Origin: a virus
Virus record (IMG/VR): IMGVR_UViG_3300034198_004497
Coordinates: 1-30,851 of that record
DNA length: 30,851 nt
Strand: one strand, 5' to 3'
The notes beneath the pieces were generated by a model. That model had not been told where the DNA came from, ran no database searches, and worked only from the letters and a program-made list of their open reading frames with translations. The position numbers and the translations under genes were made by a program. Below are positions 4,833-30,851 of this stretch, in pieces (position 1 is the stretch's first letter; every line of letters starts with the position of its first letter).

Positions 4833-5192
4833 ATGAGCCGCGGAGGTAGGCGTCAAGGAACACCCGGTAAGGCGTACAGCAACCGGACTGACCTTGCCGT
4901 AAACACTGGTCCGCAGACAGGAATGGCTACCGCGGCTTCTGGTGGAGTGGCTGCGCCAGCGACGCAACAGTGGACAACACCCGATCAGGTTCCGTCGTTG
5001 ACTGATCCCACGGCACGCCCTGACCTTCCCGTCACACACGGTCTCGCTACTGGTCCCGGTGCGGGCATGGAAGCGATCGGCCCGGTTCCTTCGCGTCCAG
5101 AAGCCGACCAACTGTTTGCCGCCTACGCAATCATGCCGACCCCTGAGTTGATGAACGCGATCATGATGATGCAGGAGAAAGGAGTCGTCTAG
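4833..5192 (+). CDS. small post-portal protein of unknown function
   Basis: This 119-residue protein begins MSRGGRRQGTPGKAYSNRTDL, a basic N-terminus that I associate with short proteins encoded just after the portal in actinobacteriophages. The middle is Pro/Thr/Gly-rich and probably disordered. The C-terminus is helical and Met-rich (PELMNAIMMMQEKGVV). No catalytic motif is visible. The start has no Shine-Dalgarno sequence because the preceding bases are the palindrome at 4814-4830. Its TAG overlaps the GTG of the giant gene (TAGTG), and its own last codons supply that gene's ribosome-binding site (AGGAGAAAGGAG). A virion or assembly role is likely from context only. Confidence 0.7.
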   Translation: MSRGGRRQGTPGKAYSNRTDLAVNTGPQTGMATAASGGVAAPATQQWTTPDQVPSLTDPTARPDLPVTHGLATGPGAGMEAIGPVPSRPEADQLFAAYAIMPTPELMNAIMMMQEKGVV

Positions 5193-8100
5193 TGGCTGCG
5201 CCCAAAAAGACTCCCTTGCAGAAGGCTCAGGAGCGGTGGTCGGGAGCGTTTGATCGAGAATATGTGCCGTTCGAGAGTGTCCCGCACTACGACCCGATCG
5301 ACATTATGCGCGTTGACGGTCAACTGATTGTTGCTCAAACCGTCAACAACCGGCGACTCGATGCAGCACTCACAATGGGGCCGATGGGCGCGCGCATGTT
5401 TGACCAGTGGGCGCGCAACACTCCCGCCACCGACCCTTTCACTTGGATTCCGCTCGCCTACTCAGGGGTCGCCCCTGATCGTTTGCCGACGATCGTTCAA
5501 GACCAGATCAACTACGCTGACCTGATTCCTAAGGCAGCACCGGAGCCGACGCAGAGCGCAATCCCTCAAAACAACGAGCCTGACAACCTGTTTGAGTCGA
5601 TAACTGGCGCAGTTTCAAATGCCTATGATGCCGCATGGTCAGGCATCCAGACGGGGGTCCGCGGAGCGTTTTCGGCTTTGCAGACGTTGCTCGAGGTTCC
5701 TGTCGGACAGGTCAACTCAATCTACGGTGACCGAGAAGCTAAGAGACAGGTAGCAGAGAAGTACGGCTTGAAGTTTGAGGAAGTAGAGTTTCTATTTCCC
5801 AACTACGGCAACACAGCGTTACGACTTGCCGGCCTAGGTGGCACCCCAGTTCCCGATGGTGTCGACCCCTACAACTGGGCCGTTTTCCACTTTGGGCAAG
5901 ACCGCGCTGACATTATGTTTGCAGCGCAAGACGAGTTTTTGAGGCAACCGAATCGTGCAGGGACACCCTTGCAGGCGTGGCAAGACTTGGTGATGCGAAC
6001 AAGCGCAGGTCAGATTGGCAACGATCCTGGACTGCTGTTTGATCCTGAGCTTGGTGGATCAGGTTTGCTACCTAGTAACCGGATTGAGGAAGAAAAATAC
6101 ACTCGCGCTGGTCAACAGTACGACTTGCGTACGCCGGAAATGAAAGAAGCAGCGGCTCAAAAGATCGAGAATATGACTCTCCAGTTGGCGAAGCGCGGCT
6201 ACATGCCTAACCAAGACTGGGTTGACTCAATCAACGCGCCACTAGCGGCCACCCCAGGTCGAATGATTGCTCAACAGTGGCTTGATCCCACAAGCTCGGA
6301 CTATGCCGTGAAGTCGGGGATCATCGACGCTGGCATTTCGCTTGGCCTAGACCCTGCCAACTACATGGGTGTCGGCTTGGTTGAAAAGGGAGCATTGCTG
6401 CTTCCTAAGGTGCTACGCAAAGCCGGTGTGGCAGTCCCGACTACGGCCCGTGAAGCCGTCGGCAAGCAGCGTCAAGTTTTGGTGGCTACTGATGGGCGAG
6501 TCAAGTTTGGTGCGGCCAATCAGGTGCCGTCGCCGCTTGCTGCTGTGCGCGCGTCAGCCAAAGACAAGACCACGATTGCTGACCTCCGCTCGCTTGGGAT
6601 TGAAGAAGTTGTTGACCCTGCTCGCGCAGCGGCTGAGGCTGCCGGCACCACAACCAGTGGCCGTGGTTTCTACGTCAGCGGTCAGGCCGCATACAACTTC
6701 TTGATGGGCGCTAGAGGCGGGCGTATTGTTGACGATCTAGTTGGCATGACTTCACCCACAGCGATTGTGCTCAAATCCAATCGCAAGTTCGATATTGCCC
6801 TTGCCACTCAGTTATCTAAGGCGTCTACACCCGAAGCAGTGCGAGCGGTCTTGTTGAGCCGCATGGGTGGGGAGATTGACTCCGCATCAGGTTTGACCAA
6901 GTTTGGTCAAGCGCCTGGACTGTTTCGTAGCGCACCAATCGTCTCTACCTTCTTCGGGGGAGCAGCCAAAGACTCTGCTTTTCGGCAGTGGTTCCGTCTT
7001 GCGCCGCAGAGCGGTCACTTCGACCTGAACGACACTGACGAGGCCTTCCAGCGCATCGAAGCGTTCACGCGTGGACTTGGTATCACCGCGGAAAAGTTCG
7101 GTGAGCACATGGACCGCATCATCAACTCGCCTCAGGATCGAAACATTCGGTTTGAGGCTTTGACTGACTTGATGATGGAGGTTGCTACCAAGCTCAAAGA
7201 TGAGAACGGCATCGAGTCTGCTCGAGCGAAAGACTTGGTTCAACTTTTTGCTGGCGGCCTGTCTAACGATGCTCGCAAGTATGTGGCCGAAGGCGTGGCG
7301 TTGAGCGGCAATCTTGGAGCAAAGCTGGACGTACACAAGCCGCTTTTGGAAGCCGAGTTGTTGGGTCGAACTGTCGCTTTGCCTGACTTCCGAGCAATCA
7401 TGCGCGAGACCGGCATGTTGGGGTCTATCGAACGCAAGTTGAGCGGCGATGCCAAGGTTGCTTCGTACGTCTTAGACAAGTTGAACCACGGCACGTCTAT
7501 TTGGCGTATGGGCGTACTGGTTCGACCTGCCTACGTTCTGCGCGAGATTGGCGAAATGAACTTTCGTCAAGGACTGTCTGGCTACGGCGGTGGTTTTGTT
7601 CATCCCGCTCAGCACATCGGCTTGGTCATGTCTACGATCATGGCAAAAGAGGCTGCTACCGCGGCCCATCGTATTGGTCGTGCCGTTATGGGCCACATCG
7701 ACTGGGAGCACAACAACAAACTGTTTGATCGGCAAGTGGAGCGCAGGGGCGCTTTGGAGGGTGCGCTTCCTCGGACTCGCGCAGTTGCCTACCGCGCAAT
7801 CGCACTGCCGGGTCAAGGTGTTCGCACTACGGCTGAACTTGCTGGCCGTATTCCTGTTCCGGCCCTACTGCGGGACGTGGAGAAGCAACGGGTAGCCGGA
7901 TACAAGGCTGCCCCGGTAGTCCACACCAAGGTTTCTGCCGGATCGTACACGACGGGCGACGGGCACACGATCAACAAGACCGGAAAGACGTGGACAGTCA
8001 CCGGCCCGTTTGGCGCTGGAAACTACCCGACTATGGCTGCCGCTCGAACCGCGATTGACAACGCGGCACCCAAGAATGTTCCCATCATGCAGACTTACGT

Positions 8101-10909
8101 TGACCCCAACTTGACGCTTACGTCAGTGGCGCTGAAAGAGGGTATGCAGCGGCTGTTTCCGTCCATGTCGATGACTATGGCGCGCGTCAACGGTGAGCAA
8201 ATGTATGCCTCGCTGAACCGCTACTTGGACACGGGCGACTTGGACGATCTGGAACGCTGGCACACGTTCATGGGCAGTGTGCATGGCTCGTACTCGCTTG
8301 ATGAGGCAAGTGCTAGGTCCGCTGCCCGCGCCTACGCCATGTTGTCGCGCGACAAAGAAAACCAGTGGAGCGACTACATCAGCGGCACTATCGACAAGTT
8401 GGAGATGCTGGCTCGTGACTCGCTTGTGCGCGACTTGGCCAACCCCAACGTCACGTTTGATGATGCAGTTGCGAACATGCTTGCGTCCCCGACATTGGCG
8501 GGTCGGATGCACGCTCAACCGGCGCTACTGACTGCCGGCAACCTTGCTGCCGACGCTAGGCAGTACGCCAAGGTTGTTCAAGCGATCATGCGAAAAGTGA
8601 CCATGAACGACAGCGAGCTTTACGAGGCTCTAGCAACCCGCACTTACCGAGGGGTGCGCCTCGAGGGTGGCAACAAGGAGTTGCGGGCGTTCTGGCGTTC
8701 CAAGTTGCAGGCAGACGCTCTTGTTCCAATCAACCAGCGCGTACTGCCAGATGAGGTCAAAGGCAGCCGTTTCCAAACGGGAGACAGGACGCTCACCAAC
8801 GTCCTTGATGACGTGACGGAAGGCTTTTTCAATGCCACTGGAGAACTGTCTGACGTGTTTTCGCGCGGGCCGCTGTTTCGACAGGCATACATGAAGCGGG
8901 TTCTTGACCTGGGGGCCAACATGAGCCCTGTCGCCAAAGCGGAGGCTGTGCGGAAGCTTCGCAAAGCCGGCGACACAAAACTTGCTGCCCGCATCCAAAA
9001 AATCGAGGCTCGCGGGAGTCTCACTGTGGATGAGGTTGACGGCATCGCTCTTGGGTTTGCCGTCAAAGAAATGCAGCGGATCTACTACGATGCTACGAAG
9101 CGTCAGAACTGGGCGTTTGCTACTCGCATCGCTATGCCTTTCGCTCAGGCGACAGCCAACACGTTCCGCAGATGGGGCGAAATGTCCCTCAAAAACCCGC
9201 AACTCATGTACCGGACAATCAAGCCGTTCTACGCTGGCACGCAGCCCGGTTCAGCCGTCATCTACGACATGCTGGGCGGCTTGACTCGAGACGAAGAACT
9301 CCAGTCTTACTACACCCCGGATGACCCGACGATGGGTGCTGACGGTTTCTTCTTCACTGACAAGTACGGCGAGCGTCGGTTTGCCTACCCGCTGATCGGC
9401 CAACTGGCGAGGATGGTGCCTGGGCTTTCTGATGTGATGCAATCGGGCCCGATGAACTTCGTCTCCAAAATGGCCGGACTCAACGTAGCCGGCACGTCGA
9501 TCTTCCCCGGTGTCGGACCGGCGCTGACCCTTCCGCTCGCTATTGGTGCTTCTGAATGGCAGGACGAAGATTCGGCTAGAGGGGAAATCGTCCGTTACAT
9601 TGCTCCCTACGGTCTGCCGCGGGGGTCAACGCTGGACAAGGTTATTTCGTCTCTGGCCCCGCCAGCGCTTGACAAGCTCAAAAAGTCTGAGACAGAAGAC
9701 TTGGCGGCTCGCGCGGCAATCGGCTTGATTCCTACCTTGCTCTCTAGCGGCAACTACGACGTGAGCACCCCATCGGGGATGCAGCGCCTGACTGATGACG
9801 CTAACCGCATGGCTAAGGGTTTGACTGTTTGGAACGCAGTCTTTGGTGCAGTCACCCCCGCAACCTTGTCGAGCAATCCTTCGCTGTGGGTCAACGGTGA
9901 TCCTGATGGTCATGGCCGCGTCATGATGATGCAGTCAAAGCTGATTCAGGAATACAGCAAGTACCGCGACACTGCCAAGACCCCACAAGAAGCCACTGCG
10001 CTGTTTGCACAGGACTACGGTGTTGCTGCTTTGAGCGCACTCATCCCTAGCACGACAACTAAGGGGCCGCAGTCAACCAACGACATTTTTTCGTATCGCA
10101 CCCTTGAGCCGCAGGCGTACAAGACGTACAACGACGTTATCGGCTACTTTTTTGGTGCCGGTGATCCGTATGTAGAGTTCAAGACTGCCGACCAAAACAA
10201 CAAGCCGACTGCGTACAGTTCGCAGGCGTACCTCGCACAGAAGGCAGACGGCGACAAGCAGATTCGACCTGTCGAAGATTTCGTTACTGAGATCAACAAG
10301 CAGTTGGGCTGGATGCTCTACAACGCACGCACCAATGAGATCGACAAAAACATCGTTGACCCTGACACGCGGGTGCGCGCTCGAGCGGATTTGGAATCTG
10401 AGGTCATTCGCAAGTTCCCTGGCTGGTCGAACCAAGCCGTTGATCCCGGTGCGTTCGACAAAAAGATGAACCTTATGCGCGAGGCTCTGCGTGACCCAGC
10501 GGTCAAGCAACTGCGTTCGGCGCCGTACTTGACTGCGTACATTGTGGCCCGCGAGTCTGCGATTGAAGATTTGCGGAGTCAAAACTTGTCTGGTGATCTG
10601 AGGACGAAGGCGGCTAAGACTCAGCGAGAAGCTCTGCTCGAGGTTGCCTTGAAGATCACCAAGGAGGACACCACGGGAGCGTTTGCAAACGCCTGGAATC
10701 GACTGTTCAGCAAAGAGTTCCCCGCATCGCTGTTTACCGTCAAGGAAACCCCGCGCGGACGGGCGCTACCAGAAACGGTTGACGACGCTACCATCAGCCG
10801 TGGCGTGGTCAGCGGTTCGCCTGATTTGCCAATGGGCACCCGACCTGACCAGTCGCAAGAGGCAATAAATCTGGACACACAACCTGACGTGTTGGGGAGT
10901 ACGCCATGA
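5192..10909 (+). CDS. giant virion protein, putative internal/ejection protein
   Basis: At 1905 residues this is by far the largest gene, about 19 percent of the window. It starts at a GTG overlapping the previous stop, after a strong AGGAGAAAGGAG site. It looks like a chain of mostly helical segments without long membrane spans. A region near residues 910-945 resembles a small beta domain (TWTVTGPFGAGNYPTMAAARTAI). Around residue 1300 the pattern YYDATKRQNWAFATRIAMPFAQATANTFRRWGE matches a motif I know from very large phage structural proteins that carry polyvalent-protein-associated domains. Its position among portal, scaffold and capsid genes, with no tape-measure gene elsewhere, suggests a head-internal protein ejected with the DNA in a podovirus-like particle. 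I see no clear lysozyme, protease or polymerase motif. Confidence 0.75.
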   Translation: MAAPKKTPLQKAQERWSGAFDREYVPFESVPHYDPIDIMRVDGQLIVAQTVNNRRLDAALTMGPMGARMFDQWARNTPATDPFTWIPLAYSGVAPDRLPTIVQDQINYADLIPKAAPEPTQSAIPQNNEPDNLFESITGAVSNAYDAAWSGIQTGVRGAFSALQTLLEVPVGQVNSIYGDREAKRQVAEKYGLKFEEVEFLFPNYGNTALRLAGLGGTPVPDGVDPYNWAVFHFGQDRADIMFAAQDEFLRQPNRAGTPLQAWQDLVMRTSAGQIGNDPGLLFDPELGGSGLLPSNRIEEEKYTRAGQQYDLRTPEMKEAAAQKIENMTLQLAKRGYMPNQDWVDSINAPLAATPGRMIAQQWLDPTSSDYAVKSGIIDAGISLGLDPANYMGVGLVEKGALLLPKVLRKAGVAVPTTAREAVGKQRQVLVATDGRVKFGAANQVPSPLAAVRASAKDKTTIADLRSLGIEEVVDPARAAAEAAGTTTSGRGFYVSGQAAYNFLMGARGGRIVDDLVGMTSPTAIVLKSNRKFDIALATQLSKASTPEAVRAVLLSRMGGEIDSASGLTKFGQAPGLFRSAPIVSTFFGGAAKDSAFRQWFRLAPQSGHFDLNDTDEAFQRIEAFTRGLGITAEKFGEHMDRIINSPQDRNIRFEALTDLMMEVATKLKDENGIESARAKDLVQLFAGGLSNDARKYVAEGVALSGNLGAKLDVHKPLLEAELLGRTVALPDFRAIMRETGMLGSIERKLSGDAKVASYVLDKLNHGTSIWRMGVLVRPAYVLREIGEMNFRQGLSGYGGGFVHPAQHIGLVMSTIMAKEAATAAHRIGRAVMGHIDWEHNNKLFDRQVERRGALEGALPRTRAVAYRAIALPGQGVRTTAELAGRIPVPALLRDVEKQRVAGYKAAPVVHTKVSAGSYTTGDGHTINKTGKTWTVTGPFGAGNYPTMAAARTAIDNAAPKNVPIMQTYVDPNLTLTSVALKEGMQRLFPSMSMTMARVNGEQMYASLNRYLDTGDLDDLERWHTFMGSVHGSYSLDEASARSAARAYAMLSRDKENQWSDYISGTIDKLEMLARDSLVRDLANPNVTFDDAVANMLASPTLAGRMHAQPALLTAGNLAADARQYAKVVQAIMRKVTMNDSELYEALATRTYRGVRLEGGNKELRAFWRSKLQADALVPINQRVLPDEVKGSRFQTGDRTLTNVLDDVTEGFFNATGELSDVFSRGPLFRQAYMKRVLDLGANMSPVAKAEAVRKLRKAGDTKLAARIQKIEARGSLTVDEVDGIALGFAVKEMQRIYYDATKRQNWAFATRIAMPFAQATANTFRRWGEMSLKNPQLMYRTIKPFYAGTQPGSAVIYDMLGGLTRDEELQSYYTPDDPTMGADGFFFTDKYGERRFAYPLIGQLARMVPGLSDVMQSGPMNFVSKMAGLNVAGTSIFPGVGPALTLPLAIGASEWQDEDSARGEIVRYIAPYGLPRGSTLDKVISSLAPPALDKLKKSETEDLAARAAIGLIPTLLSSGNYDVSTPSGMQRLTDDANRMAKGLTVWNAVFGAVTPATLSSNPSLWVNGDPDGHGRVMMMQSKLIQEYSKYRDTAKTPQEATALFAQDYGVAALSALIPSTTTKGPQSTNDIFSYRTLEPQAYKTYNDVIGYFFGAGDPYVEFKTADQNNKPTAYSSQAYLAQKADGDKQIRPVEDFVTEINKQLGWMLYNARTNEIDKNIVDPDTRVRARADLESEVIRKFPGWSNQAVDPGAFDKKMNLMREALRDPAVKQLRSAPYLTAYIVARESAIEDLRSQNLSGDLRTKAAKTQREALLEVALKITKEDTTGAFANAWNRLFSKEFPASLFTVKETPRGRALPETVDDATISRGVVSGSPDLPMGTRPDQSQEAINLDTQPDVLGSTP

Positions 10910-25594: not shown

Positions 25595-25745
25595 CTAGCC
25601 GCACCACCAGTCGTTCTTGACGATCGCGCATCGCCGCGATTCGTGGCTCCTGCGACTCACGGCCACGCTTGAAAGCGATGTTGCTGACGATGATGGTGTA
25701 GATGGGCAGCACGATGACGAGCGCCCAGATGAGGTCGTTGTTCAT
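25566..25745 (-). CDS. 59-residue single-pass membrane protein
   Basis: On the minus strand an ATG at 25743-25745 overlaps the stop of the RecB-like gene (ATGA) and opens a 59-codon frame. It reads MNNDLIWALVIVLPIYTIIV, then SNIAFKRGRESQEPRIAAMR and a basic tail ending RNRRRD. Residues 5-25 form one membrane segment, and the C-terminal 35 residues are helical and highly charged, so the basic tail probably stays in the cytoplasm. It fills the 147-base gap between two annotated-size genes. The coupling, composition and frame support a real gene. Membrane attachment of recombination or replication machinery, or a superinfection function, are guesses. Confidence 0.65.
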   Translation of the reverse strand: MNNDLIWALVIVLPIYTIIVSNIAFKRGRESQEPRIAAMRDRQERLVVRLDAERNRRRD

Positions 25746-26683
25746 GAGCGCACCTTCCGCACGTCAAGGCGCTCGTAGCCGGCCCGCTCGAACGAGGGAA
25801 CCTGCGAGCCGTTGATGTACGTCCAACGTGCCTGGTATCGCCCGGTAGAGCCGGACACCCCCACCAGCATGGCTTTAGCTTCGTCCTTCAAACGCTTGGC
25901 TTCCTTCTCGAGACGCTGGCCTTCGACGTACATATCTATCGCCCCGACGAGCTCGGGGTCGCTGATGTATTCGCTGTTTTCGTCAGGGAGGCTGCCGCGG
26001 CAAGCAGTGAAGAACTCGCAAATCTTCTCGCACACGGGCGCTGCCACGTCACGTTCAGCGTCCTCGTTATTGACGACCGCGTACGTCACGTCGTCAATCC
26101 ACGAACTGATCTGGTCAGTAAGCGACCAGTCGGCTTCCTCAATCTCGACGTACGGCATTTCTGTGGCACCGGAACGGTCGAGGTAGACGTTGCAGACGTA
26201 GATCGGCTTAGTCGGGTCAAGCCAACCCTTCTCGATTGCACCCAGCAGGTACAGGTGGCGCTGGAACTTGTTGGACTGGTCGGAGCCGTAGCGTGCGACG
26301 TACTCGAGGCCGTCCTTAGTTTTGAGGTCGATGATTGCGTTCCAGTCGGGGGCAACAATGTCGGGGGTGCCGCTGACTTCCGCACCGTTCGGCAGGGTGG
26401 CGGTGACGCGTTCCTGCTCAACGATCCAGTCGGGGAACTGAACCTTGATGATGCTTTCCACGAAGTTGTGAATGGCCGTGCCAACACCGGCAGCCCACAC
26501 GGGCGTCGAATCTGTTGCCTTGACTCCTTTCGTCATGAGTGCTGCCTTTTGCCGGCAGAACCCGATGTTGGAGGGGCCGAGTTGACCGGCAGCGGCTTGC
26601 TTGGATCGAGCGGAGCCGTGGATGCCGGCTTTGATCGCCTCAGCGAACACGAACGAGATTGTCTGTGCGTCGGGGGTGCTCAT
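25742..26683 (-). CDS. RecB/Cas4-like PD-(D/E)XK exonuclease with probable Fe-S cluster
   Basis: The 313-residue protein likely resects DNA ends to feed the Rad52-like annealing protein encoded just upstream, overlapping by ATGA. The nuclease core has VSGTPDIVAPDWNAIIDLKTKDG at about residues 100-123: the acidic PD and the D-x-K catalytic pair. A conserved H in AIHNFVESI lies near residue 71. Cys43 (NIGFCRQ), together with VCEKICEFFTACRG near residues 217-231, supplies one distant and three clustered Cys (C-x3-C-x5-C). This is the arrangement that binds a 4Fe-4S cluster in Cas4 and AddB-type nucleases. The start has AAGGAGG. A lambda-Exo-like role in annealing recombination is inferred. Confidence 0.8.
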   Translation of the reverse strand: MSTPDAQTISFVFAEAIKAGIHGSARSKQAAAGQLGPSNIGFCRQKAALMTKGVKATDSTPVWAAGVGTAIHNFVESIIKVQFPDWIVEQERVTATLPNGAEVSGTPDIVAPDWNAIIDLKTKDGLEYVARYGSDQSNKFQRHLYLLGAIEKGWLDPTKPIYVCNVYLDRSGATEMPYVEIEEADWSLTDQISSWIDDVTYAVVNNEDAERDVAAPVCEKICEFFTACRGSLPDENSEYISDPELVGAIDMYVEGQRLEKEAKRLKDEAKAMLVGVSGSTGRYQARWTYINGSQVPSFERAGYERLDVRKVRS

Positions 26684-27513
26684 GCCTGATCCTCCTTAGC
26701 GAACGAACCAGCGGCAACGAGGTCCGCGAGTTGCCCGTACGTTATGTTTCCGTGACCTGGCACTTCGGTCATCATGGTCAGAATGTCGGTTCCGGTGGCC
26801 GCGGATTTGAGCGACGCGACGACAAGGACACGCTCGCGGGCCTTCGAGTTGCTAGCGACCGCGCGCAGCTCGGAGAGCCACATTTCGTGATCGACAGTCA
26901 ACGGCAGGTCGTCTGTCTCAGTCTGAGACACTGCCTTCGGGTTGGTGCGGCTGATTTCTTCCCGAGGCGGGTTGTAGGTCGCCTCGTCCTTCGAGTGAGC
27001 CTCATCCCCAAGATCGTTGACTGGCGCTTCCTGCACCACACCAGCAGCCATGTCGGGACGCACGATGGTGCCCATGACGAACGCCGACTTCTGACCCTTG
27101 TTGTAGAGGCTCAGACCGAACTGGTCGCCAAGGTTGCTGCATGCCCGCTTGATTGCAGTAGACACCGCCGATGTGAGTGCTAGTGCGTGCGCTTCGGCCC
27201 GGTCAGGTTGAGGCATGTTGCCACTGGCGTGGCTGTCCTGATACGACGCAAGAAACGTGCCGTCCGGGGCGTCAATGCTGACCTCGACGGTGGCCCGGTA
27301 GCCGACCTTCCACCGCTTCTGCTCGTTCTGTTCCTCAAACAGCATCACCGTCTCAACGACGCGGGTAGACCAGCGCCCGAAGCCGAAGATGCGGTTCATG
27401 TGTGCGCGAATGTCGTGCTGCGCGACGTAAGACATGCCCTTCAAGTCAAGGACTCGAGTCGGGTTGATGGGGGCGATCAAACGATCGTATTGCTCGTTGG
27501 AAAGGTAAGACAT
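26680..27513 (-). CDS. Rad52-like single-strand DNA annealing protein
   Basis: The protein anneals complementary single strands in phage recombination. The start is taken as the ATG at 27513, with GGGAG seven bases upstream; the promoter lies close enough that the upstream ATG at 27543 would fall near or before the start of transcription. It has 277 residues. The N-terminal 150 contain GMSYVAQHDIRAHMNRIFGFGRWSTRVV, a beta strand region (YRATVEVSIDAPDGTFLASYQDSHASG), and AEAHALALTSAVSTAIKRACSNLGDQFGLSLYNKG. The last pattern (A.K.A.S.A.KRA...G...G..LY) is the Rad52/Rad22 signature. The C-terminal part is acidic and variable, ending KEDQA, possibly an SSB or partner contact. The leader is complementary to the loop of the sRNA at 29328-29460. 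Confidence 0.85.
   Translation of the reverse strand: MSYLSNEQYDRLIAPINPTRVLDLKGMSYVAQHDIRAHMNRIFGFGRWSTRVVETVMLFEEQNEQKRWKVGYRATVEVSIDAPDGTFLASYQDSHASGNMPQPDRAEAHALALTSAVSTAIKRACSNLGDQFGLSLYNKGQKSAFVMGTIVRPDMAAGVVQEAPVNDLGDEAHSKDEATYNPPREEISRTNPKAVSQTETDDLPLTVDHEMWLSELRAVASNSKARERVLVVASLKSAATGTDILTMMTEVPGHGNITYGQLADLVAAGSFAKEDQA
26914..26930. repeat. dispersed palindrome, copy 5 (TGTCTCAGTCTGAGACA)
   Basis: This copy lies inside the Rad52-like gene and is identical in sequence to copy 1. It is read as V-S-Q-T-E-T in the variable C-terminal part of the protein, where a non-structural sequence can be tolerated. Confidence 0.85.
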
Positions 27514-27531
27514 GGTTTTTCTCCCTAGTTG
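27514..27531 (-). promoter_or_regulatory. ribosome-binding leader of the Rad52-like gene, sRNA-complementary
   Basis: On the minus strand the bases before the ATG read CAACTAGGGAGAAAAACC, with GGGAG as the ribosome-binding site. The + strand RNA from 29335-29352 (GGTTTTTCTCCCTGGTTG) pairs with all 18 bases, 17 Watson-Crick and one G-U. Pairing would cover the ribosome site and reach the start codon, so repression of translation is the expected effect. Confidence 0.6.
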
Positions 27532-27544
27532 CTTGTTTGTCATG

Positions 27545-27573
27545 ATTTTAGTGCAACGTGCATTGTGAGTCAA
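27545..27573 (-). promoter_or_regulatory. sigma70-type promoter for the annealing/nuclease operon
   Basis: On the minus strand TTGACT (27568-27573) and TAAAAT (27545-27550) are separated by exactly 17 bases, each one mismatch from consensus. Transcription would begin near 27538 and leave a leader of about 25 bases ending in the AGGGAG site. The -35 overlaps the stop codon of the HNH gene. This would drive the genes from 27513 down to 23433. Confidence 0.7.
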
Positions 27574-28012: not shown

Positions 28013-28545
28013 TTGGTCTCCTTGATGCCGGCAATCGAATCCCACGCCACGCTTTTTGCTGGCTTGATGTACGGAGTGGGCGGTACGGGGAAGCCGCACT
28101 CGCAGTAGTTGTGACGACCAGCGGTGATGAACTTTGAGCACCCCTGGCATCGCACCGTGTGGGTCACCCCAACATCATCGAGGGTGAGACTGACAAGGGT
28201 GAGCTTCTCGCCGCAGTTGACGCACCGGGCGTTCATTCCGGGGGACGAACCGCGCTGATACGGCTGGGAGCAGCTCGAACATTCAGGCGAACCGACCGAC
28301 GTATCTGTGGCGCGCCGCGAGTTTGCCCGCAACTGCTCTTGGATGCCCGTCACAGTGACCTGATGCGGGTTAGCGGAGCCGTACCAGCGGTGAATGACCG
28401 TGACAACCTCATCGAGTTGCCACGACCGCAGGTACAGCATCCACGCCTGCACTTTTGCGGCCCGTGCTTCCTCAGTGGACACCCGGTGGCGAGGATCAAG
28501 ACCTTCCACCGTCAACAGCAATGATCGAACCTCGTCGGCGTTCAC
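28009..28545 (-). CDS. replication accessory protein with multiple zinc-ribbon pairs
   Basis: The 178-residue protein starts at a GTG that overlaps the initiator stop (GTGA), after AGGAGG. Residues 1-75 are helical (MNADEVRSLLLTVEGLDPRH, then WMLYLRSWQLDEVVTVIHRWYG and VTVTGIQEQL), with the spacing of small helicase-loader proteins such as the G39P type. The rest has CSSC at 89-92, CVNC at 108-111, CQGC at 133-136 and CEC at 148-150, forming two zinc ribbons. Its place directly after the replication initiator supports a role in loading the replicative helicase. The loader label is an inference from pattern and context. Confidence 0.6.
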   Translation of the reverse strand: MNADEVRSLLLTVEGLDPRHRVSTEEARAAKVQAWMLYLRSWQLDEVVTVIHRWYGSANPHQVTVTGIQEQLRANSRRATDTSVGSPECSSCSQPYQRGSSPGMNARCVNCGEKLTLVSLTLDDVGVTHTVRCQGCSKFITAGRHNYCECGFPVPPTPYIKPAKSVAWDSIAGIKETK

Positions 28546-29279
28546 AGGGAACCTCCTGAGAGCCGCTCTAAAGCCTCCACGAAGGCCGGGTCCATGCCGG
28601 CGTAGGCAGCGGGCTGTTCGTCAAGCCACCGCTGCGCCCACAGCCACGTTGCAGGGTGTGGGACGTACTGCTCGCCCGCGGCAAGGTTCCATCCGATGCC
28701 TTTGCGAGTCGCTTCGATGACTTGCTCGGCAGTCGTCTCCTTCATGGCAGCGCGCCACGCTCGAGCCGCTGCGCCCTTGGCGACCTTGCGAGGAACGACC
28801 CTCCACCAGTCGTCAAATCCGACGCTCGGCGTCGCGTTAGCGGCGGTGAGCAAGAGTTCTTGTTCTTGGTCTTGTTCTATTGGTCTTGTTTGTCCCCCAT
28901 CCACGGGGGGGGAGTCCCCCACTGACGGGGGGGTGGTATCCCCCACTGATGGGGGGGTATCTTCGTCGGGCCGCGAGTAAGCTTTAGGGATCACCACGTC
29001 GAGCAGCCGGGTCGATGACGACACTTGCACTCCTGTTGCGCCGTACTGAGGCGAACGGTCGATGACACCGTTTTGCACCAACTCTTTGATGAGCCGCTGC
29101 GTCGTGTTGACTGAAATCCCTAGTGCTTCGCTGACTGTCGAAGTCGAAGGCCAGCAGTAGCCTTTTTCGTCAGCGTACGTCGCGTACAGCGCGTACAGCG
29201 CCTTTGCCTGCGGAGATAACGATGGATCGCGCATGATCGTTGATGCGATGACACCAAACGAACGTGAAAGCCTAGACAC
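28542..29279 (-). CDS. winged-helix replication initiator
   Basis: The start is the GTG at 29277-29279, four bases after AGGAGG; upstream in-frame starts lack such a site. The 245-residue protein has an N-terminal winged helix (LSPQAKALYALYATYADEKGYCWPSTSTVSEALGISVNTTQRLIKELVQNGVIDRS) of the HTH_36 type. Low-complexity linkers follow (TPPSVGDTTPPSVGD, then QDQEQEL). The C-terminal domain (GFDDWWRVVPRKVAKGAAARAWRAAM, then YVPHPATWLWAQRWLDE) is shared by phage replication initiators. The linker-coding DNA carries the C5-N6-G7/8 repeats, a likely origin, as in lambda O. The accessory protein follows immediately. Confidence 0.8.
   Translation of the reverse strand: MSRLSRSFGVIASTIMRDPSLSPQAKALYALYATYADEKGYCWPSTSTVSEALGISVNTTQRLIKELVQNGVIDRSPQYGATGVQVSSSTRLLDVVIPKAYSRPDEDTPPSVGDTTPPSVGDSPPVDGGQTRPIEQDQEQELLLTAANATPSVGFDDWWRVVPRKVAKGAAARAWRAAMKETTAEQVIEATRKGIGWNLAAGEQYVPHPATWLWAQRWLDEQPAAYAGMDPAFVEALERLSGGSL
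28866..28960. repeat. candidate replication origin: C/G tandem units and direct repeats inside the initiator gene
   Basis: Three tandem units of CCCCC-N6-GGGGGGG(G) lie at 28894-28912, 28916-28933 and 28940-28957, spaced 22 and 24 bases apart. The two left-most inner sequences are ATCCAC and ACTGAC, the third ACTGAT. Beside them, in an AT-richer stretch, TTGGTCTTGTT occurs twice, at 28866-28876 and 28880-28890. The layout of iteron-like units next to AT-rich repeats within the initiator linker resembles phage origins of the lambda O type. The G tracts could also form quadruplexes, and the long homopolymers may slip. Confidence 0.5.
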
Positions 29280-29291
29280 ACTTCCTCCTGG

Positions 29292-29321
29292 TTGACGTGT
29301 TGGATTGTGAGAACGTACAAT
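29292..29321 (+). promoter_or_regulatory. sigma70-type promoter for the + strand sRNA
   Basis: TTGACG (29292-29297) and TACAAT (29316-29321) lie 18 bases apart on the + strand. Both are one mismatch from consensus. A start site near 29328 would place the first hairpin of the predicted RNA at its very 5-prime end. It points opposite to the surrounding genes, which would be pointless unless a small RNA is made. Confidence 0.65.
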
Positions 29322-29327
29322 GTGGCG

Positions 29328-29460
29328 CAGCGCAGGTTTTTCTCCCTGGTTGAGCCTGCGCGAGAGTGGCACTGCCGCTCCCTTGCTCTAACCCCGTTTA
29401 CGGAGCGAGGTACGAAAGTGCGGGGATCGGGCCTGATAGAACCCGATCCCCGCACTTTCA
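29328..29460 (+). ncRNA. candidate small regulatory RNA, antisense to the Rad52-like leader
   Basis: Downstream of the promoter at 29292 the + strand has four consecutive hairpins. H1: GCGCAGG/CCTGCGC, 18-base loop (29330-29361). H2: GAGTGGC/GCCGCTC, 3-base loop (29364-29380). H3: CCTTGCTC/GAGCGAGG, 14-base loop (29381-29410). H4: a perfect 17-bp terminator stem (29415-29458). The non-Watson-Crick pairs in H2 and H3 are G-U on this strand and would be A-C on the other, which shows the direction. The H1 region 29335-29352 pairs over 18 bases, one of them G-U, with the ribosome site of the Rad52-like gene. The RNA also overlaps the leader of the initiator in antisense. It is probably a repressor of annealing-protein synthesis; this is not proven. 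Confidence 0.65.
29415..29458. terminator. terminator hairpin shared by the small basic gene and the sRNA
   Basis: Arms of 17 bp (left arm 29415-29431, right arm 29442-29458) pair perfectly around the 10-base loop CCTGATAGAA. It lies seven bases after the stop of the leftward gene at 29466 and at the 3-prime end of the rightward sRNA, so it can serve both. The outer pairs are AAA/TTT, giving a T run at the end of the stem on either strand but no long U tract beyond it. Confidence 0.9.
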
Positions 29461-29465
29461 CTGCA

Positions 29466-29726
29466 TCAGGACGCTGCAAGAGCCTCGTCTACGATGCCGT
29501 CACCGTACTGTGCAGCGAGAGCGGCGATCTTCGCCTTCGCCTCGTTGCGTCGGCGCTCAGTGACCAGAGCACCACGTTCCTGAGCCGACAGCCGAGTCCG
29601 GTAGGTCCGGCCTTCGTTGGCGTACTCAGCGGCGAGCAGCGTGCGGTATTCATTCGGGTACTGCTCACGAAGCTTCTTCGAGGCCCGCTGCGCGAGTGTT
29701 GCCGATGACGCCTGCTTGTCTGACAT
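29466..29726 (-). CDS. small basic helical protein of unknown function
   Basis: The 86-residue protein is preceded by AAAGGA six bases before the ATG and by palindrome copy 7 (29744-29760). It is helical with many Arg, Ala and Glu (SSATLAQRASKKLREQYPNEYRTLLAAEYANEGRTYRTRL), then TERRRNEAKAKIAALAAQYGDGIVDEALAAS. No zinc or catalytic motif is seen. The alternating basic helices could bind DNA. Because a palindromic site sits just upstream and a strong terminator just downstream, it is expressed as its own unit and is a candidate for the regulator that binds the palindrome, though this is speculative. Confidence 0.65.
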   Translation of the reverse strand: MSDKQASSATLAQRASKKLREQYPNEYRTLLAAEYANEGRTYRTRLSAQERGALVTERRRNEAKAKIAALAAQYGDGIVDEALAAS

Positions 29727-30777: not shown

Positions 30778-30814
30778 GATAGATATTCCTTTCTAGTTGG
30801 AGGATAGAACACCA

Positions 30815-30851
30815 ATGCCGCTAGGCTATCACGCGGATAACCTAGCGGCAT
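30815..30851. terminator. hairpin at the right end of the window
   Basis: ATGCCGCTAGG (30815-30825) and CCTAGCGGCAT (30841-30851) form a perfect 11-bp stem, with TATC/GATA pairing further inside after a single mismatch. It ends exactly at the window edge and lies upstream of the leftward gene at 30777, so it is most simply the terminator of a gene beyond the window. It could also be an operator or a processing hairpin. Because the window stops at its last base, any extension is not visible. Confidence 0.65.

Follow-up and report, generated by a model that had tools for sequence, protein, structure and literature searches.

The window analysed here, the whole of a 30,851-base IMG/VR virus record from an uncultured phage, carries in its right part a leftward gene region that encodes, in this order, an SSB, an 86-aa protein, the replication initiator, a 178-aa protein, an HNH protein, a Rad52/22-type annealing protein and an exonuclease (Table 1). 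The initiator gene contains three iteron-like repeats, and similar repeats were observed in the initiator gene of the related phage G006 (locus L017, 1773–1842). Elsewhere in the window, a single ORF of 1,905 aa occupies the rightward region at 5192–10909. The record ends in a hairpin (30813–30851, ATGCCGCTAGG...CCTAGCGGCAT), and given this ending the contig may have been cut at a terminator-like repeat.

Table 1. Features of the leftward gene region and of the initiator gap, in window coordinates.
Feature	Position	Strand	Remarks
Exonuclease gene, 3′ of the annealing gene	25742–26683	−	phrog_35747
Rad52/22-type single-strand annealing protein gene	26680–27513	−	PF04098, E 1.8e-17; ATG start
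Annealing-gene Shine-Dalgarno region, putative target of hairpin 1	27514–27531	−	CAACUAGGGAGAAAAACC, just before the ATG; 18/18 pairs, one G-U
Annealing gene's own promoter, TTGACT-17-TAAAAT	27545–27573	−	10/12 sigma70 match; same position in relatives
Replication initiator gene	28542–29279	−	GTG start at 29279; phrog_270, E 3e-37; HTH_36
Three 22-nt iteron-like repeats, CCCCCA...GGGGGGG	28892–28959		Inside the initiator gene; candidate origin
Initiator Shine-Dalgarno region, possible second loop target	29282–29295	−	UCAACCAGGAGGAA; 13/14 pairs, one G-U; direct repeat D4
sRNA promoter, TTGACG-18-TACAAT	29292–29321	+	Sigma70-like, 10/12
Candidate initiator −10, TACGTT	29312–29317	−	Sole leftward TAnnnT between the initiator and 29507
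Predicted small RNA	29328–~29462	+	Start and end predicted; fold z −8.6, four hairpins
Hairpin 1	29330–29361	+	Loop ~29338–29353, putative anti-Shine-Dalgarno element
Bidirectional terminator-like hairpin	29414–29459		18-bp perfect inverted repeat, 29414–29431/29442–29459

The 86-aa gene stops at 29466, and the gap between it and the initiator gene wholly contains a predicted small RNA that would be read rightward, away from the initiator. The preliminary description had placed a promoter for this RNA 13 bases upstream of the initiator GTG, and we found the sigma70-like elements at exactly this distance. Promoters were called by the sigma70 consensus, which may not be that of the host; by this measure the whole window contains two 10/12 matches on its two strands, against 0.8 expected, and these two belong to the predicted sRNA and to the annealing gene, which favours their pairing as regulator and target. 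The RNA from 29328 to 29463 is predicted to fold into four hairpins at −78.6 kcal/mol, and with its own promoter and a terminator-like end it has, at the level of sequence, what would be expected of an anti-Shine-Dalgarno sRNA. On these grounds both the promoter and the predicted RNA are well supported as far as the sequence goes. The sRNA matched no family in Rfam, including at a relaxed threshold; candidate matches at E 0.2–3.4, mostly to microRNA families, were judged to be hairpin artefacts. Its exact loop motif has a single, unrelated match in IMG/VR, and the collections searched yielded no close homologue of the sRNA itself. In IMG/VR we likewise found no close relatives of the initiator or of the 86-aa gene, the initiator homologues there being distant, and no initiator homologue was found among phage records.

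On its loop side, hairpin 1 carries GGUUUUUCUCCCUGGUUG (29335–29352), which pairs contiguously with the annealing-gene Shine-Dalgarno region. Among all sites in the window outside the RNA itself, this match is the longest, and it is positioned exactly at the ribosome-binding site. The annealing leader ranks first of 35 gene leaders (−31.9 kcal/mol), none of 500 shuffled loops is as good on it as the real loop, and the interaction retains −12.8 kcal/mol even after the cost of opening hairpin 1, so that the annealing-gene ribosome-binding site shows extended complementarity beyond chance. That one RNA would act in trans on the annealing gene, as had been proposed from the sequence, is strongly supported by this pairing, by the shuffled loops and by the loops of related phages.

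Ten viral records share a terminase, which is 66–69% identical in the best segment. Of these relatives, G004, G006, G008 and G009 each carry a GC-rich hairpin directly 3′ of the exonuclease gene, with a loop that can base-pair with the Shine-Dalgarno region of that phage's own annealing gene. Specifically, the G006 loop CUCUCCUGUUUC is complementary to its own leader GAAACAGGAGAG, and the G004 loop CUCUCCUGUUCG to its own leader CGAACAGGAGAG; the match in G009 covers seven bases only. Using aligned annealing proteins from these four phages and G011, we recruited 44 loci, many of which show the same hairpin-after-exonuclease design, and in most of which the annealing gene has its own promoter and a short leader, as in the window. 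Across all 23 phages, the pairing of each loop with its own leader was equalled in 0 of 20,000 permutations, and again in 0 of 20,000 when the window was omitted and when one phage per leader type was kept, in a test that leaves some effect of shared ancestry in. For 13 of the 23 phages, the own leader ranked in the top four, and when compared with every position of its own locus it stood out (best 3%) in 13 of 24. This within-locus specificity is mixed, as in 10 of the 24 phages the leader's pairing is equalled or surpassed at more than 20% of positions. In L069, L078, L079, L090 and L106, the post-exonuclease hairpin fits the leader poorly, partly through uncertain start codons; the gene starts of several relatives were assigned automatically.

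We found no convincing promoter before the post-exonuclease hairpins in most loci, and these hairpins are therefore probably the 3′ ends of mRNAs. The window lacks a hairpin in this position because the next gene overlaps the exonuclease gene and leaves no room for one. The comparison strongly supports an anti-Shine-Dalgarno hairpin against the annealing gene as a conserved, group-wide logic, of which the window would carry an independently promoted version beside the initiator. Homologues of the annealing protein were not found in bacterial genomes, and six records of cultured Microbacterium, Rhodococcus and Streptomyces phages with a Rad52-like gene have no comparable free leader, because there the annealing gene starts within ~5 nt of the upstream gene or overlaps it.

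Some of the recruited loci carry further structured elements. In L084, an anti-Shine-Dalgarno hairpin at ~2750–2800 (loop TTCCCTTCCCTTT) that matches the annealing leader follows a 350-aa ORF and precedes the annealing gene. In L067, L069, L070 and L075, two hairpins come just 3′ of the exonuclease gene, the first with a poly-C loop (CCCCC to CCCCCC) and the second being the anti-Shine-Dalgarno hairpin. In G008 (L028, 6076–6120), terminator and promoter are fused: the loop of a 14-bp terminator-like hairpin contains the −35 element of a leftward promoter, TTGACA, and the −10 element comes directly after the stem. The sequence after this promoter (~5955–6066, minus strand) is structured and probably noncoding, ends in a GC-rich stem with a T-rich tail, and is a possible further small RNA.

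The initiator mRNA could be a second trans target, with hairpin 1 pairing with both Shine-Dalgarno regions and so co-repressing recombination and replication initiation. The initiator leader ranks second of the 35 for loop pairing (−19.7 kcal/mol) because its Shine-Dalgarno region and the loop complement share UCAACCAGG, as reflected in direct repeat D4 (TTCCTCCTGGTTGA versus TTCTCCCTGGTTGA). None of the 23 other phage loops fits this leader as well as the window's loop does (−19.7 versus −13.6), and as a pure loop contact the pairing would retain a net energy of about −12 kcal/mol. However, 123 of 500 shuffled loops match some leader equally well, so that the match is not significant, the energy falls to −0.4 kcal/mol when the opening of hairpin 1 has to be paid for, and by eye no comparable initiator match was seen in the relatives. 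We consider joint repression of the two genes rather unlikely, and the initiator match was downgraded as a main function of the RNA, given how often shuffled loops equal it and that opening hairpin 1 costs nearly all of its energy. Nevertheless, if the sRNA touches the initiator at all, trans pairing between loop and Shine-Dalgarno region is the better route, and this is modestly supported.

The other route is the one given in the preliminary description, where the same RNA was said to be countertranscribed to the initiator leader. The model for such an arrangement is the CopA-CopT pair of plasmid R1, in which an antisense RNA controls repA, the replication initiator, and the predicted sRNA resembles CopA in lying on the antisense strand upstream of a replication initiator. 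The two differ in that the sRNA of the window is not predicted to share sequence with the initiator mRNA except on readthrough, and its strong target is the annealing gene. The minus strand contains no TAnnnT between 29318 and 29507, and the sole leftward candidate −10 belongs to a weak promoter (3/6 and 2/6 matches, with a poor −35) that would start the initiator mRNA at ~29305, left of where the sRNA would begin. The claim of countertranscription is thus unsupported, as the only leftward −10-like site predicts a start outside the RNA; the preliminary description itself took an initiator mRNA starting left of 29328 to be incompatible with it, and the start predicted from these weak elements is such a start. 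The placement of the promoters and the bidirectional hairpin instead suggest divergent, non-overlapping transcripts. By eye, TACGTT also occurs ~30 nt before the initiator start in G011, and TACATG ~31 nt before that in G006.

Overlap between the sRNA and the initiator mRNA would, as the sequence is laid out, arise only from readthrough of the 18-bp hairpin. The initiator could then be expressed from a long mRNA that reads through from the SSB and 86-aa genes, with the sRNA as a cis antisense of its leader that sets its level as CopA does. The RNA does lie on the opposite strand across the whole gap, and the lack of a strong leftward promoter between terminator and initiator means that readthrough could matter. 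However, the 18-bp hairpin should stop leftward transcription, and in the corresponding gap of G008 and G009 such a hairpin is followed by a clear leftward promoter (TTGACA-18-TAAGAT and TTGACA-17-TAAAGT, respectively). Furthermore, an away-pointing promoter is no general feature of related initiators: upstream of 40 distant ones we found it in 2, against 3.3 expected, and thus no enrichment. The leftward promoter geometry and the terminator hairpin weigh against cis overlap, which we rate as less probable than divergent, non-overlapping transcription, and CopA-like control of the initiator appears unlikely.

The placement of the promoter has a parallel in the OOP RNA of phage lambda, whose promoter, pO, lies at the start of the initiator gene, fires away from it and gives a short, terminator-ended RNA, with iterons located within the gene (PMC3349717, PMC3985674). 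The window likewise has a promoter at the initiator start that points in the opposite direction, and its candidate origin of three iteron-like repeats lies inside the initiator gene. OOP is also defined by its overlap with the 3′ end of cII, to which it is antisense, whereas the terminator-like hairpin of the window ends at 29459, before the stop codon of its neighbour, and the best match of the window RNA is the Shine-Dalgarno region of a distant gene. The likeness to pO raises the possibility that the rightward promoter matters in itself, rather than its RNA, by transcription or promoter interference near the origin and the initiator. The activity of pO affects lambda replication (PMC3985674), and the overlapping −10 elements of the window would exclude each other. 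We nevertheless consider this quite improbable, as it leaves both the 18-nt loop match and the matching of loops to leaders in the relatives unexplained. Least probable of all is the absence of any regulatory RNA, with a bidirectional terminator and chance similarity of promoter and loop, for although relatives by eye also have terminator-like hairpins after the SSB or 86-aa gene, the fold z of −8.6, the 0 of 500 shuffled loops and the 0 of 20,000 permutations argue strongly against it.

We consider it likely that a free sRNA (29328–~29462) restrains the annealing module in trans, while the initiator is transcribed divergently and without overlap except on readthrough. The sRNA would be transcribed from its own promoter, and the loop of hairpin 1 would capture the Shine-Dalgarno region of the annealing mRNA and block ribosome binding, which would restrain the recombination module of annealing protein and exonuclease. 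In the relatives, the corresponding hairpin at the 3′ end of the annealing-exonuclease transcript would probably provide negative feedback; in the window, this element appears to have been uncoupled from the operon and now stands divergently beside the initiator, which is most likely read from its own overlapping leftward promoter.

The predicted RNA would work like an anti-Shine-Dalgarno sRNA, for which the nearest described actinobacterial case is 6C/B11 of mycobacteria. This small RNA is structured and represses translation through hairpin loops that base-pair with ribosome-binding sites (PMC10470900). The two share a structured small RNA with a loop complementary to a ribosome-binding site, but the loop of 6C/B11 is a generic poly-C loop, whereas that of the window is rich in U and C and its specificity for a single phage gene extends over 18 nt, and the predicted sRNA does not match the 6C covariance model of Rfam. 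Closer to 6C than the window loop are the poly-C-loop hairpins that adjoin the element in some relatives.

More broadly, these phages may represent an undescribed family of anti-Shine-Dalgarno elements that act on a Rad52-type annealing gene, mostly as 3′-tail feedback with co-evolving loop and leader and here as a free sRNA that perhaps silences both recombination and replication initiation; this wider reading is a serious possibility that stops short of being probable. Within the papers searched in full text, no relevant report on phage annealing proteins together with small RNAs turned up, and riboregulation of phage recombination seems hardly described. Because loop and leader change together across the phage group, a specific target can be tested even where no host is in culture, and the contrast between a 3′ tail in the relatives and a free sRNA in the window could trace how trans-acting sRNAs arise.
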